The position numbers were made by a program, and so were the translations under genes. A stretch of 64,000 bases of DNA, taken from Desulfurobacterium pacificum. Its GTDB lineage: Bacteria; Aquificota; Aquificia; Desulfurobacteriales; Desulfurobacteriaceae. The stretch is from NCBI RefSeq assembly GCF_900182835.1, contig NZ_FXUB01000002.1, positions 1 through 64,000 on the forward strand, in the 5' to 3' direction. Shown piece by piece: positions 20,056-29,142 of the stretch (position 1 is its first letter; every line of letters begins with the position of its first letter). The notes beneath the pieces are model-generated. The model had not been told where the DNA came from, did no database searches, and saw only the letters and a program-made list of their open reading frames with translations.

Positions 20056-20761
20056 AAGAATACCACTGCTTCATTATACCTGTTTTAAAACTTTCCTTTC
20101 TGTAAGTTTCAAGAAAAGAAGAAGCACCGACAAAAGCTTTTTCAAGTACTTCTCCAAGACACATTAAAGAAAGCAAAGCTGAAGAAAACGCACAGCCCGT
20201 TCCCCTAACCTCTTTATCATCTCTAACGTGGACAATCTCCTTTAAAATCTCCCCCCCCATCATTAATAAATCCTTCACTCTTTCACCTTCCACAACACCT
20301 TTAACAATTACACCACCTTTAAAATCCTCAAGATAAGGCTTCAAAACTCTATACTCGCTAAAGTTAGGAGTAATCACATCGGCAACCGAAAGCAAAGGTC
20401 TTATTACTTCTAAATTGCTCAAAAATTCTTTCCCAAAAGTTGGAGAAACAACGGGGTCAAAAACAATGGGTTTAAAATCTCCCAATAACTTAGCCATCTC
20501 ACTATTAATCTCAGCAGAGCTGTGAGGAATACCAATCTTGACGCCAAAAGGCTTGATTTCTTCTAAAACTGCCTTTAAGTGTTCAATTAAAAATCCCCCC
20601 TCCACAAACTCAACCCTTCTCACGCCCCCGGTGTTCTGAACCGTATTGGCAGTTATTGCAGCAGCGCCTAAAAATCCAAACCGCCTGAAAATAGCCAAAT
20701 CTCTCAAAATTCCGGCACCGCCAGTTGGGTCAAAACCTGCAACAGTTAAAAGAAACTTCAA
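20048..20761 (-). CDS. thiD: Hydroxymethylpyrimidine/phosphomethylpyrimidine kinase
   Basis: ThiD phosphorylates HMP and HMP-phosphate for thiamine synthesis. The 237-residue ribokinase-fold protein has the N-terminal substrate loop [14 protein letters not shown] (residues 8-21), the [11 protein letters not shown] loop, [10 protein letters not shown], and the catalytic [11 protein letters not shown] near the C-terminus. It is slightly shorter than the usual 260 residues. Start is TTG with GGGGGTG upstream. The 3' end overlaps the Rpn-type gene by eight bases. A copy of the AAAATCCCCCC motif lies inside it. No thiamine riboswitch was seen upstream. Confidence 0.88.
20590..20600 (+). repeat. 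AAAATCCCCCC motif, copy 1 (in thiD)
   Basis: Exact 11-mer on the + strand, antisense to thiD. Followed by TCCACAAACT. Confidence 0.85.
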
Positions 20762-23687: not shown

Positions 23688-25319
23688 ATGAGAGGGATAA
23701 TTTTAAGAATTTTTGGAATTTTGTTTCTTTCCTTTGTTTCTCTATCAAGTCAGGCAGAAACGCTCAAAGCTAAAAGATTCATCGGTTATCTCCAAAAAGG
23801 AAATTTCTGTTCAACCGAATTCCTTAAAGAGTTTAACGGGACAATCTTTTCTACGTTATCAAAAGAGTTGTACGTTTTAAACTGCCCCGTAGAGAATGAA
23901 AACTTAGAAGTTAAAAACCCTTACGTAAAGTTCATATACGCTAAAAAGCTAAAAAAGCAAGGAAAAACGGAAGAAGCAAAAAAACTCTTTAAAGAGATAT
24001 TCTCAAGCACCAACAGGTTAGACCCGGAAATAATAACGGCAAATGCAGGTGATACTAAATATCTGTTCACACCTGAAGTTTTGAGAAAAAAGGTCTGGAT
24101 AGCAATAAAAGATAGAGAGTTCGCAGAAGCTGAGGTGTACCTATCGTTTTTAAAAACCGACCCTTTCTATAACTACTTTAAAGGAATAATCCAGCTTAAA
24201 AGAGGGAACTATAGGAAAGCCAAAGAGTACCTTGAAAGCAGCAACATACCTTTAAGATATTTCTTCTTGATTTACGTTTCAAAAGAGCCAGCGGAAAAGT
24301 TTTTCTATTTCAGGAAATTATTAACAGAAAACGTTCCTGCTTACTACAAGAAGGCAGCCTCTGTTTATCTGCTTGACAGGTTTTTGGTGGGAGAGGGGGG
24401 ATTTTACAGGAAAATGCTTGACAGCATAAAAACCCTCTTTCCAAAAGTTTACAGAACTTACAGAATTAAATATGAAGTAATTAACTACAACTACGAGAAA
24501 GCTATAAACCTAATTGCAACTCCTCAAAACGAAAAAGAGAAGGTATGGAGAGAAACGCTAAAAGCCAAATTGGGTTTCAAAAGCGATTACTCTTTCTTGA
24601 TTGGTAAGAAAGATTTTTACGCTCTACTCCTTTCTAAACCTAAAAAAGTTGTTAAAGAAGGCAACGTTGAAATTTCAAACCCCGATATCAAATATCTGCT
24701 ATCAAACAACTACTGCCCAGTAATTTCACTGCTTGACCTAAAATCAAAAGATATTCCTTTAGCCCTCTACAAATGCGGATACTATTCGGCAGCTCTCAAA
24801 GCAGCCGTAAAACTTAAAGTAAAGAAACCTTTACAGATACTATACCCAAAACCGAAAATATTCGGAGACGACTTTATATCTTTAGCCATTGCAAGACAGG
24901 AAAGTCTCTTTAACCACCTTGCACTTTCACGCTCCGGAGCGATAGGACTGATGCAGATAATGCCTCTTACAGGCAGGTACTTAGCTAAGAAATTAGGAGA
25001 TACGGACTTCTTCAAGGAAAAACTTTTTATACCCGAAGTAAATTACCGATTTGGCTCGTTCTACATCCACAGCCTTCTTAAAAAGTTCAAATCCTTTCCT
25101 TTAGCTGCAGCTGCCTACAACTGCGGACCTGGAAATTTAAAAAAAGCGCTTAAAAATTATGGAAAGATAAAAACTAAAGAAGACCTTATAATTTTCGTAG
25201 ATTTTTATCTGCCGTTTAAGGAAACGAGAGATTACGTTAAAAAGGTAAGCAGAAATCTCTATTTTTACTCCAACCTATACGGAACAGGGCAAGAATGGAA
25301 AAGTTTCTTAAAGCCTTGA
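23688..25319 (+). CDS. Soluble lytic murein transglycosylase (Slt-like)
   Basis: The product (543 aa) has a signal peptide (MRGIILRIFGILFLSFVSLSSQA), a long helical repeat region with TPR-like segments, and a C-terminal SLT goose-type lysozyme domain. The catalytic glutamate is E405 in ARQESLFNHLA, followed by SGAIGLMQIMP and AAYNCGPGN. It should cleave peptidoglycan strands in the periplasm, forming anhydro-muramyl ends. It starts 15 bases after the GGDEF gene and overlaps the next gene by 25 bases. A copy of the AAAATCCCCCC motif lies in the reverse sense near residue 236. Confidence 0.9.
   Translation: MRGIILRIFGILFLSFVSLSSQAETLKAKRFIGYLQKGNFCSTEFLKEFNGTIFSTLSKELYVLNCPVENENLEVKNPYVKFIYAKKLKKQGKTEEAKKLFKEIFSSTNRLDPEIITANAGDTKYLFTPEVLRKKVWIAIKDREFAEAEVYLSFLKTDPFYNYFKGIIQLKRGNYRKAKEYLESSNIPLRYFFLIYVSKEPAEKFFYFRKLLTENVPAYYKKAASVYLLDRFLVGEGGFYRKMLDSIKTLFPKVYRTYRIKYEVINYNYEKAINLIATPQNEKEKVWRETLKAKLGFKSDYSFLIGKKDFYALLLSKPKKVVKEGNVEISNPDIKYLLSNNYCPVISLLDLKSKDIPLALYKCGYYSAALKAAVKLKVKKPLQILYPKPKIFGDDFISLAIARQESLFNHLALSRSGAIGLMQIMPLTGRYLAKKLGDTDFFKEKLFIPEVNYRFGSFYIHSLLKKFKSFPLAAAAYNCGPGNLKKALKNYGKIKTKEDLIIFVDFYLPFKETRDYVKKVSRNLYFYSNLYGTGQEWKSFLKP
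24395..24405 (-). repeat. AAAATCCCCCC motif, copy 2 (in slt)
   Basis: Reads GGGGGGATTTT on the + strand within slt. Motif strand is minus, antisense to the gene. Confidence 0.85.
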
Positions 25320-26816: not shown

Positions 26817-27221
26817 CTAACCTCTAATTGCTGTAATGAGATTGGCAAATTCCGCTGCAAGAAGTTCAAACACATCATCAATGGAAATTAACCCTACTAA
26901 TTTACCTTCTTTGTCAACAACTATCAACCTTCTAACAGATGCTTCTCTAAAAGTTCTGGTTAATTCAAAGAAAGAAGCGTCCTCTCTTATAGTTACAGGA
27001 GATTTAGTCATCACCTCTTTAACAGGAGTATCCGGGGATTTCCCTGCTCCTACAACTCTTATGGCTATATCTCTATCGGTAATTATGCCTGCAGGTTTGT
27101 CCCCATCTAAAACGACGAGGCTTCCAACCATCTTATCTTTCATCCTTTGGGCAGCAAGCATTACAGTGTCGTCAGGTTCAACGGTCACAACCTTTCTCTG
27201 GATTAAGTCTCTTACCGGCAT
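26817..27221 (-). CDS. Two-CBS-domain protein
   Basis: The 134-residue protein consists of two CBS domains: about 1-62 (MPVRDLIQRKVVTVEPDDTV...GIITDRDIAIRVV) and about 70-130 (VKEVMTKSPVTIREDASFFEL...LVGLISIDDVFELLA). Such stand-alone pairs bind adenine nucleotides and act as energy sensors, but partners are unknown. The start is the ATG at 27221, with GGGAGGG just upstream, rather than an in-frame extension of 27 residues that would lie across the hairpin region. Confidence 0.88.
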   Translation of the reverse strand: MPVRDLIQRKVVTVEPDDTVMLAAQRMKDKMVGSLVVLDGDKPAGIITDRDIAIRVVGAGKSPDTPVKEVMTKSPVTIREDASFFELTRTFREASVRRLIVVDKEGKLVGLISIDDVFELLAAEFANLITAIRG

Positions 27222-27289
27222 AACACCCTCCCTTCTCAAGTAATTCTTATTTAAGATTAATGCTTGTAAGAGACTTATGCAAGAAATAA

Positions 27290-27300
27290 AAAATCCCCCC
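27290..27300 (+). repeat. AAAATCCCCCC motif, copy 3 (intergenic, arm of hairpin)
   Basis: First arm of the inverted pair with copy 4; followed by ACTCACTTCC. Confidence 0.9.
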
Positions 27301-27343
27301 ACTCACTTCCTTCCATTCCAACGCAGGGAAAAGAGCAGGGGGT

Positions 27344-27354
27344 GGGGGGATTTT
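27344..27354 (-). repeat. AAAATCCCCCC motif, copy 4 (intergenic, arm of hairpin)
   Basis: Second arm of the inverted pair, 43 bases after copy 3, opposite direction. Confidence 0.9.
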
Positions 27355-27368
27355 TTTCAGAAAGAAAT

Positions 27369-27983
27369 TTAACTCTTTGAAATATCCTTCAAGATAATCA
27401 TATACTCAGGGTCATTAATGTTATACATTTTCGGAAACATCTTATAGATAGGACCAGCGTAAACGGTCTTTCCATCTTTCTTAACAACCACCAAAATAGC
27501 AGGGTTACGAGGTTCGTTAGAAGCAGAAGTGTACTTATCTCCTACAACAAGCTGAGGCACAATATAAAGAACCTTAATTTCCATACCCTTGAAAGAAATC
27601 ACATCGCCCTTCTTAACCTTAACTTCTTTTACAGGCTTTCCTGTCTTCTTATCAACAATATCAACAGTAGCGAACTTCCAGGTTTTTTCTACCTCAGCAG
27701 GAATCTCCACAGGCTTATCAATCTTCGTCAACACTTTCTTCGTATGGAACATCTCAACTTCTTTCTGAGCATTCATCTGAGGATGTCCAGGAGGCATATT
27801 GTTAACCGGAGGATGACCTGCCGGCATCTTTCCATTTTGAGGCTCAAGTTCAGATAGGGGTTTCGGCGCCTTAGTTTCCTGCTGTGTAGTTTGAGTTTTC
27901 GCTTTCTCTTCCTTCTTTCCACAAGAACTAAAAGTAATAGAAGCTGCTGCTAAAACAGCTGCAAGAACAAGCGTCTTTCTCAT
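27369..27983 (-). CDS. Lipoprotein with DUF2155-like C-terminal domain
   Basis: The 204-residue product has a lipoprotein signal peptide with lipobox FSSC (cysteine at residue 21), then a low-complexity linker rich in Gln, Lys and Pro. A short His-Pro-Met stretch follows (MPAGHPP..MPPGHPQMN, about 53-71) which might bind metal. The C-terminal part (about 103-200: TWKFATVDIVDKKTGK... to KMFPKMYNINDPEY) resembles DUF2155 proteins of unknown function. Location is probably the outer or inner membrane, facing the periplasm. Confidence 0.72.
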   Translation of the reverse strand: MRKTLVLAAVLAAASITFSSCGKKEEKAKTQTTQQETKAPKPLSELEPQNGKMPAGHPPVNNMPPGHPQMNAQKEVEMFHTKKVLTKIDKPVEIPAEVEKTWKFATVDIVDKKTGKPVKEVKVKKGDVISFKGMEIKVLYIVPQLVVGDKYTSASNEPRNPAILVVVKKDGKTVYAGPIYKMFPKMYNINDPEYMIILKDISKS

Positions 27984-28023: not shown

Positions 28024-29142
28024 TCACAGCAAAACCTTCAAGATTACAGCAGAAGAAAAAGAAATAAACGAGTAAACAAGAAGAACGAAAAATCCCCCCA
28101 CCTCCCACATCCCACCCAAAACAACGTTACCCAAAAGCACAAACAACCCCGTCAAGAAATGGAAAACGCCGTAAGCACTCGCCCTATACTCCTCTTTAGA
28201 AAACTCCCCTACAACCGCCCTCTGAGTCCCATCAATCAAAGCCATCGCAGCACCGTAAAAAACAAAAGATAGAACAAGAAACATAAACCCGTTGGAAAAT
28301 GCCAAAAACAGAAGGGAGAGAGCAGAAATTCCATAACCTATAGACAAAACTGTCAGCCTGCCAACCTTATCCCCCAAAACGCCAGCAGGAACAGAAAGAA
28401 AAGCGTAAAACAGATTAAAAACGGCATACAAAACAATAGGAACAACCTTTGAATGCGTAATTTCTTCCGCCCTAAGCATAAAGAACATATAGCTAACAGA
28501 AGAAAAGGCGAAAAGAGCAGCTACAAATAAAAATTTTTTAAACCTTCCATCCAAAAAGCTAAAAGAAAAGGAAATCTTTCTATTAACTCTACTAACTTTC
28601 GGCTCTTCCACAAACAAAAGGGGAAGCAGAGAAACAAAAGAGATAATGGCAGCAAAAAGGATAACTTTTCGGTAAGAAGCGTGCCAGTAAGCCACCATCA
28701 AAAGCGCTAAAAGCGTTCCTATTAAAGCTCCCAAAGTATCAAACGCCCTGTGAAGACCAAACCCTTTTCCTTGAGAGGAAGCAGAAAGAGAAATAATCGC
28801 ATCTCTCGGAGCAGTCCTCACCCCTTTACCTATTCTCTCAAAAACGGTAGCAATCAAAACCTGAAAAGGAGTTTTGGCAAAGCCTATAAAGAACTTGAAG
28901 AAAGCAGAAATCCCGTAGCCGGCAATAACAAAAGGTTTCTTTGAACGAAACTTATCAGACAAAACTCCCGAAATCACCTTAACGAAATTGGAAACGAAAT
29001 CTCTGAAACCACCTATTAAACCTATGGAAAAGCCGCCACCCCCCAGAGACGTTATAAAGAGGGGCAGCACAGAAAGGATTATTTCACTTGAGATATCGTT
29101 AAGTAAACTGACAACGCTTAAAAGGTAAACGTTTTTCTTCAT
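28024..29142 (-). CDS. MFS transporter
   Basis: The 372-residue protein has about 11-12 transmembrane segments and major-facilitator features: DISSEIILSVLPLF in helix 1, the loop 2-3 motif GVLSDKFRSKKPF, and ERIGKGVRTAPRDA after helix 4. A second loop motif, GVLGDKVGRLTV, follows in the C-terminal half. It resembles the multidrug or unknown-substrate MFS group and is a little short. Its ATG overlaps the stop of the aldehyde dehydrogenase by one base, so the two are coupled. One AAAATCCCCCC copy falls near its 3' end. Confidence 0.85.
   Translation of the reverse strand: MKKNVYLLSVVSLLNDISSEIILSVLPLFITSLGGGGFSIGLIGGFRDFVSNFVKVISGVLSDKFRSKKPFVIAGYGISAFFKFFIGFAKTPFQVLIATVFERIGKGVRTAPRDAIISLSASSQGKGFGLHRAFDTLGALIGTLLALLMVAYWHASYRKVILFAAIISFVSLLPLLFVEEPKVSRVNRKISFSFSFLDGRFKKFLFVAALFAFSSVSYMFFMLRAEEITHSKVVPIVLYAVFNLFYAFLSVPAGVLGDKVGRLTVLSIGYGISALSLLFLAFSNGFMFLVLSFVFYGAAMALIDGTQRAVVGEFSKEEYRASAYGVFHFLTGLFVLLGNVVLGGMWEVGGFFVLLVYSFISFSSAVILKVLL
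28089..28099 (+). repeat. AAAATCCCCCC motif, copy 5 (in MFS gene)
   Basis: Exact 11-mer, antisense to the MFS gene, followed by ACCTCCCACATC. Confidence 0.85.

Follow-up and report, generated by a model that had tools for sequence, protein, structure and literature searches.

The recurrent word found throughout this genome, and not the hairpin which two of its copies form in the window (the whole stretch of 64,000 nucleotides analysed), is the real finding; the hairpin itself is of minor interest, having arisen locally by accident. Judging from its aligned copies, the word belongs to an element which consists of AAAATCC(C/T)C and a C-rich, G-poor tail of approximately 20 nt. The best-supported function of this element is tentatively DNA-uptake recognition, and the 69-bp hairpin is, from its sequence and position, most likely the intrinsic terminator of a predicted lipoprotein gene.

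Whole-genome counts come from searches, and the other statistics were obtained from 864 kb of stretches in the 1.59-Mb genome. In these 864 kb, AAAATCCCC is the top over-represented 9-mer, with 226 copies observed and 12.1 expected under a third-order model, which extrapolates to approximately 400 exact copies per genome. AAAATCCCCC shows 196 copies genome-wide against five of its reversed control, and AAATCCCCCCA shows 29 copies against one. The counts of AAAATCCCC and AAAATCCCCC represent the strong chromosome-wide over-representation characteristic of USS/DUS. The alignment of all AAAATCC occurrences shows an A (or G), the core, C or T, and then C, and this is followed by a tail which is C-rich and G-poor from +9 to approximately +26. 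With degenerate copies included there are perhaps 800-1,000, an uncertain estimate based on the PWM excess over the reversed control. A low-threshold iterated PWM drifted to general C-rich sequence, and therefore the counts rest on exact core words. Other words over-represented in the 864-kb sample are GACCCGGA (48 vs 5.9) and GGACTTGA/CAAGTCC (66 vs 14.5); CAAGTCC is mostly antisense in one frame and is perhaps codon-driven.

The placement of AAAATCCCC is sense in 50 cases, antisense in 56 and intergenic in 11, all reading frames being represented, and 10% of the AAAATCC(C/T)C copies are intergenic, compared with 8.4% of the background; this gene context derives from crude longest-ORF calls, made without a trained gene finder. 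Even spacing and clustering of the copies were both rejected, since their placement along the genome is random. A rut-like Rho signal was also rejected, because sense and antisense counts are equal. Orientation follows the A+C-rich strand in 0.655-0.686 of copies, compared with 0.74-0.80 for words of the same composition, and correlates with strand skew (rho -0.75), replication strands having been assigned by skew. Since words of the same composition are more strand-biased than the element, no replication polarity appears to be selected. As in USS/DUS, placement is independent of gene strand, reading frame and replication polarity. A long-range strand asymmetry (C/A gradient) downstream of the word, an idea that came from a patch in the sister species, was rejected because the enrichment is gone by approximately +30. 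In alignments, the species carrying a one-species-only site shows an A+C gain over +-1 kb, on the element's strand; this gain is present on both sides of the site and is therefore regional and not motif-centred. The motif-poorest 20-kb stretch sampled (C1:660001-680000) contains one copy against a mean of 8.4 (uncorrected P = 0.002). USS/DUS are depleted in recently acquired DNA, for which this stretch gives weak evidence here once the 43 segments are corrected for. It is a restriction-modification/helicase island containing a type III-like methylase and restriction subunit, a UvrD-like helicase, a PLD-HerA-like protein and RmuC. The next motif-poorest stretch (C1:695001-715000) is a ribosomal protein cluster.

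Only two of the 118 Aquificota genomes searched are rich in the word, and both belong to one genus: they contain 128 and 82 copies of AAAATCCCCCC, respectively, and each of the 116 other genomes contains 11 or fewer. The relatives found with ScpA are labelled Desulfurobacteriaceae, Desulfurobacterium and Thermovibrio, and the nearest of them (L051) is apparently a contig of the sister genome (G016), since the same 620 bases match the same place. In the two-species alignment (133 kb, 82.5% identity), 66% of core sites are conserved exactly, whereas permuted words reach 19-21% (Fisher p 4e-13). Where both species carry the site, the divergence of the 25-nt tail is 0.11, compared with 0.17-0.19 in the flanks, and no tail-like divergence dip is present at shared control words in the same alignment. 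By this comparison, it is the whole element that is maintained and not the core alone. A word common to close relatives and kept at orthologous sites is also what USS/DUS show. The enriched words of sister genera differ from that of this genus. One genome (G007) shows GGAGCTCC, a GAGCTC-centred palindrome, at 70 per 100 kb, and Thermovibrio shows 25 in 41 kb; two genomes of other Desulfurobacteriaceae genera (G011 and G019) are enriched in AGAGCTCT, also centred on GAGCTC. These palindromes recall the cyanobacterial HIP1 palindrome, and they are nearly absent from this genus and from G014.

Table 1. Positions of the hairpin, the element copies and the neighbouring genes in the window
Feature	Position	Strand	Evidence or remarks
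CBS-domain pair protein gene, downstream of the lipoprotein gene, same strand	26817..27221	-	PF00571, E 5e-28
Hairpin (most likely intrinsic terminator)	27288..27356	-	15-bp stem, two tails in the loop; U6 at the 3' side on the gene strand
Element copy 3, AAAATCCCCCC core and C-rich, G-poor tail (ACTCACTTCCTTCCATTCCA)	27290..27320	+	Sequence
Element copy 4, facing copy 3, AAAATCCCCCC core and C-rich tail (ACCCCCTGCTCTTTTCCCTG)	27324..27354	-	Sequence
Predicted lipoprotein gene, signal peptide with lipobox-like SSC	27369..27983	-	ORF; no Pfam match for the product
Unpaired element copy AAAATCCCCCCACCTCCCACATCCCACCC, antisense in MFS transporter-like gene	28089..28120	+	
Single element copy AAAATCCCCCCTCCACAAACTC	20590..20621	+	
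Single element copy AAAATCCCCCCTCTCCCACC	24375..24405	-	

The copies located downstream of the lipoprotein gene (Table 1) are arranged as the preliminary description had it: two copies of the 11-mer AAAATCCCCCC face each other 43 nt apart, at 27290-27300 (+) and 27344-27354 (-), and the stem of about 15 pairs that it reported is a perfect contiguous one of 15 bp (27288-27302 / 27342-27356, AAAAAATCCCCCCAC/GTGGGGGGATTTTTT), with T runs on both strands. A repeat search lengthens this stem to 20-nt arms with 90% identity. Its location just past the lipoprotein stop is likewise confirmed, as the ORF ends at 27369 (-) and the stem starts approximately 11 nt past the stop. The RNA of the gene (-) strand folds with -32.3 kcal/mol (z -3.5) and that of the + strand with -35.6 kcal/mol (z -4.5), and none of 200 dinucleotide shuffles reaches the folding energy of the hairpin on either strand. 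Like intrinsic (Rho-independent) terminators, the hairpin shows a stable G+C-rich stem, then a U run, immediately 3' of a gene, and the earlier view of it as terminator-like is upheld by the stem, the folding energies, the U6 and the position after the stop. The loop, already noted as unusually long, measures 39 nt if counted from the perfect 15-bp arms, where it holds both tails, or 29 nt if counted from the imperfect 20-nt arms, whereas that of intrinsic terminators usually has a few nt; a loop of approximately 40 nt is long for such a terminator. The hairpin also differs from intrinsic terminators in that its stem is formed by two copies of a genome-wide word and contains A/T tracts. The 43-nt interval is long because it is filled by both tails, of approximately 20 nt each. 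Thus, the hairpin comprises two complete elements that face each other, and the long loop follows from this. The tail score of copy 3 ranks among the highest 24% of copies in the genome, a level found at 0.24% of random positions, and that of copy 4 among the highest 22%. The copy in the MFS transporter-like gene, being unpaired, is typical of most element copies, and from this copy onwards (28089-28300, +) the 3' part of the gene is strikingly A+C-rich. On the other side of the hairpin, the terminator would insulate the CBS gene from the lipoprotein gene. An inverted repeat at 27197-27284 pairs the leader of the CBS gene with the gene start, and in all other genera examined a different inverted repeat 5' of the CBS gene, CTCCCTCC...GGAGGGAG, links a promoter-like region to the Shine-Dalgarno.

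Facing pairs show no enrichment over density in the genome. The pair at the lipoprotein gene is the only convergent AAAATCCCC pair with 20-50 nt spacing, with approximately 0.8 expected from density, and there are three short-loop AATCCCC pairs with 1.4 expected. The genome search for convergent pairs near gene ends, proposed in the preliminary description, gave a divided result: the four strong inverted pairs of the genome are all located at gene 3' ends (by the crude ORF calls), but their number is that of chance. Facing pairs as genome-wide terminators were rejected for this reason, and the frequent inverted pairs near gene ends, a common although not defining feature of USS/DUS, are present here only in chance number. 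The commoner terminator stems use AAGGGGG...CCCCCTT (eight pairs vs 0.16 expected). Identity over 15 bp, as shared by the two copies at the lipoprotein gene, is found in 1% of random copy pairs, and this rarity together with the gene-end location suggests that the pair was probably tuned as a terminator. At the same locus of the sister species, the + strand copy is degenerate (GGTGGGGGTGGGGGATTCC on the gene strand) and the other arm is lost, and a weaker hairpin with a different left arm can be folded; the hairpin pair is, by this comparison, not conserved. The pair had also been offered as independent support for an uptake sequence, which it does not give: one pair is found against 0.8 expected, and the sister species is without one arm.

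Two unrelated families, Neisseriaceae and Pasteurellaceae, are the only bacteria for which DNA uptake is documented to be biased by a genomic tag (PMC12616744). Competence machinery, as USS/DUS presuppose, is present here: ComEC is found in 17 of the 17 good-quality genomes of the order (C1:163957-164697 in this genome) and this genome shows 12 prepilin-type proteins, but relatives without the word have ComEC too. Haemophilus influenzae USS (AAGTGCGGT, with an AT-rich 3' extension) likewise has a short core that begins with an A run, followed by a long, degenerate 3' extension uniform in composition, and is likewise found in hundreds of copies, mostly intragenic and in both orientations. Facing pairs of Haemophilus USS form terminators with ready-made A and T tails (PMC1852404), and according to Kingsford et al. 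the long 3' extension disfavours tight hairpins and favours wide spacing (PMC1852404). The long loop of the hairpin described here shows the same conflict between tail and hairpin. In contrast to the H. influenzae USS, the core is unrelated, the extension is C-rich instead of AT-rich, there are approximately 400 exact AAAATCCCC copies against 1,471 USS, the pairs are unenriched and the host belongs to Aquificota. Neisseria DUS (GCCGTCTGAA and dialects) are similarly clade-specific, over-represented across the clade and absent outside it, and show inverted pairs at gene ends. However, N. meningitidis contains approximately 230 hairpins built from DUS (PMC1852404 Table 4) compared with four pairs here, and DUS have no long tail. 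Classical USS/DUS genomes, in general, contain more copies than the number of exact AAAATCCCC found here. The DNA-uptake reading is supported by density, strand and frame neutrality, clade restriction, the conserved extended footprint and the competence genes; it is weakened by the moderate copy number, by the unenriched pairs and because ComEC and pilins are present family-wide but the word in one genus.

Several other origins of the word were weighed against DNA uptake. It might be abundant as the terminator stem sequence of the genus, the hairpin being an ordinary intrinsic terminator, as the stem with its U run and the inverted pairs at gene ends (4/4) would suggest. This is very unlikely and the terminator-stem origin is largely refuted, since about 90% of core copies fall within ORFs, in either orientation without preference, since almost none is paired, and since the common stems are AAGGGGG/CCCCCTT instead, pairs of the word being at chance frequency. 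An orientation-dependent signal such as Chi (RecBCD/AddAB) or KOPS (FtsK), read on the G-rich strand GGGGATTTT, is quite unlikely: these sites are likewise frequent G-rich oligomers with hundreds of copies per genome, and the correlation of orientation with strand skew agrees with them, but the strand bias of the element does not exceed that of same-composition words. Chi and KOPS were rejected because the polarity is no greater than composition gives; they also differ in the long degenerate tail, and one of 20 nt is untypical of Chi. Genome-wide placement, polarity and conservation therefore disfavour Chi, KOPS and rut, and an uptake-type element fits these data.

The conservation data bear on two further explanations. 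A genus-specific mutational bias could make AAAATCCCC and C-rich tails without selection; it would account for a word confined to one genus and for the T>C and G>A patches near some copies in alignments, and directional recurrent mutation could mimic part of the shared-site conservation. We consider it highly improbable, as there is no long-range skew around the word, conservation of shared sites is threefold that of controls and the tails have diverged less than the sequence around them. A site for an abundant DNA-binding protein particular to the genus (nucleoid organiser, repair or defence-related) and unlinked to uptake is unlikely, although an orientation-neutral, conserved element with an extended footprint of approximately 30 nt would suit it; against it, copies are randomly placed and show no clustering.

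On balance, we lean towards an explanation in which the hairpin of facing elements is a terminator and something other than transcription, most probably DNA-uptake recognition, was the main cause of the element's spread along the chromosome. Chance placement of two copies would have created a G+C-rich inverted repeat, the leading A run of the element would have supplied the closing A/T tracts of the hairpin, and this species would use the facing pair as the intrinsic terminator of the lipoprotein gene. We infer that transcription stops at the hairpin and that the element functions in DNA uptake. The hairpin would then be an example of facing tags turned into a terminator, rare in this genome. 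With some reserve, AAAATCC(C/T)C and its C-rich tail may be proposed as a third, independently evolved uptake-sequence system, in one Desulfurobacteriaceae genus (Aquificota), which would have arisen after the genus split and whose facing copies would occasionally become terminators. If this is true, the tag would come from a single genus of deep-branching thermophiles whose tagless sister genera share the competence gene, and the origin of tag systems would be open to study: one could look for the pilin that changed and ask whether selection or biased uptake made the tag spread.
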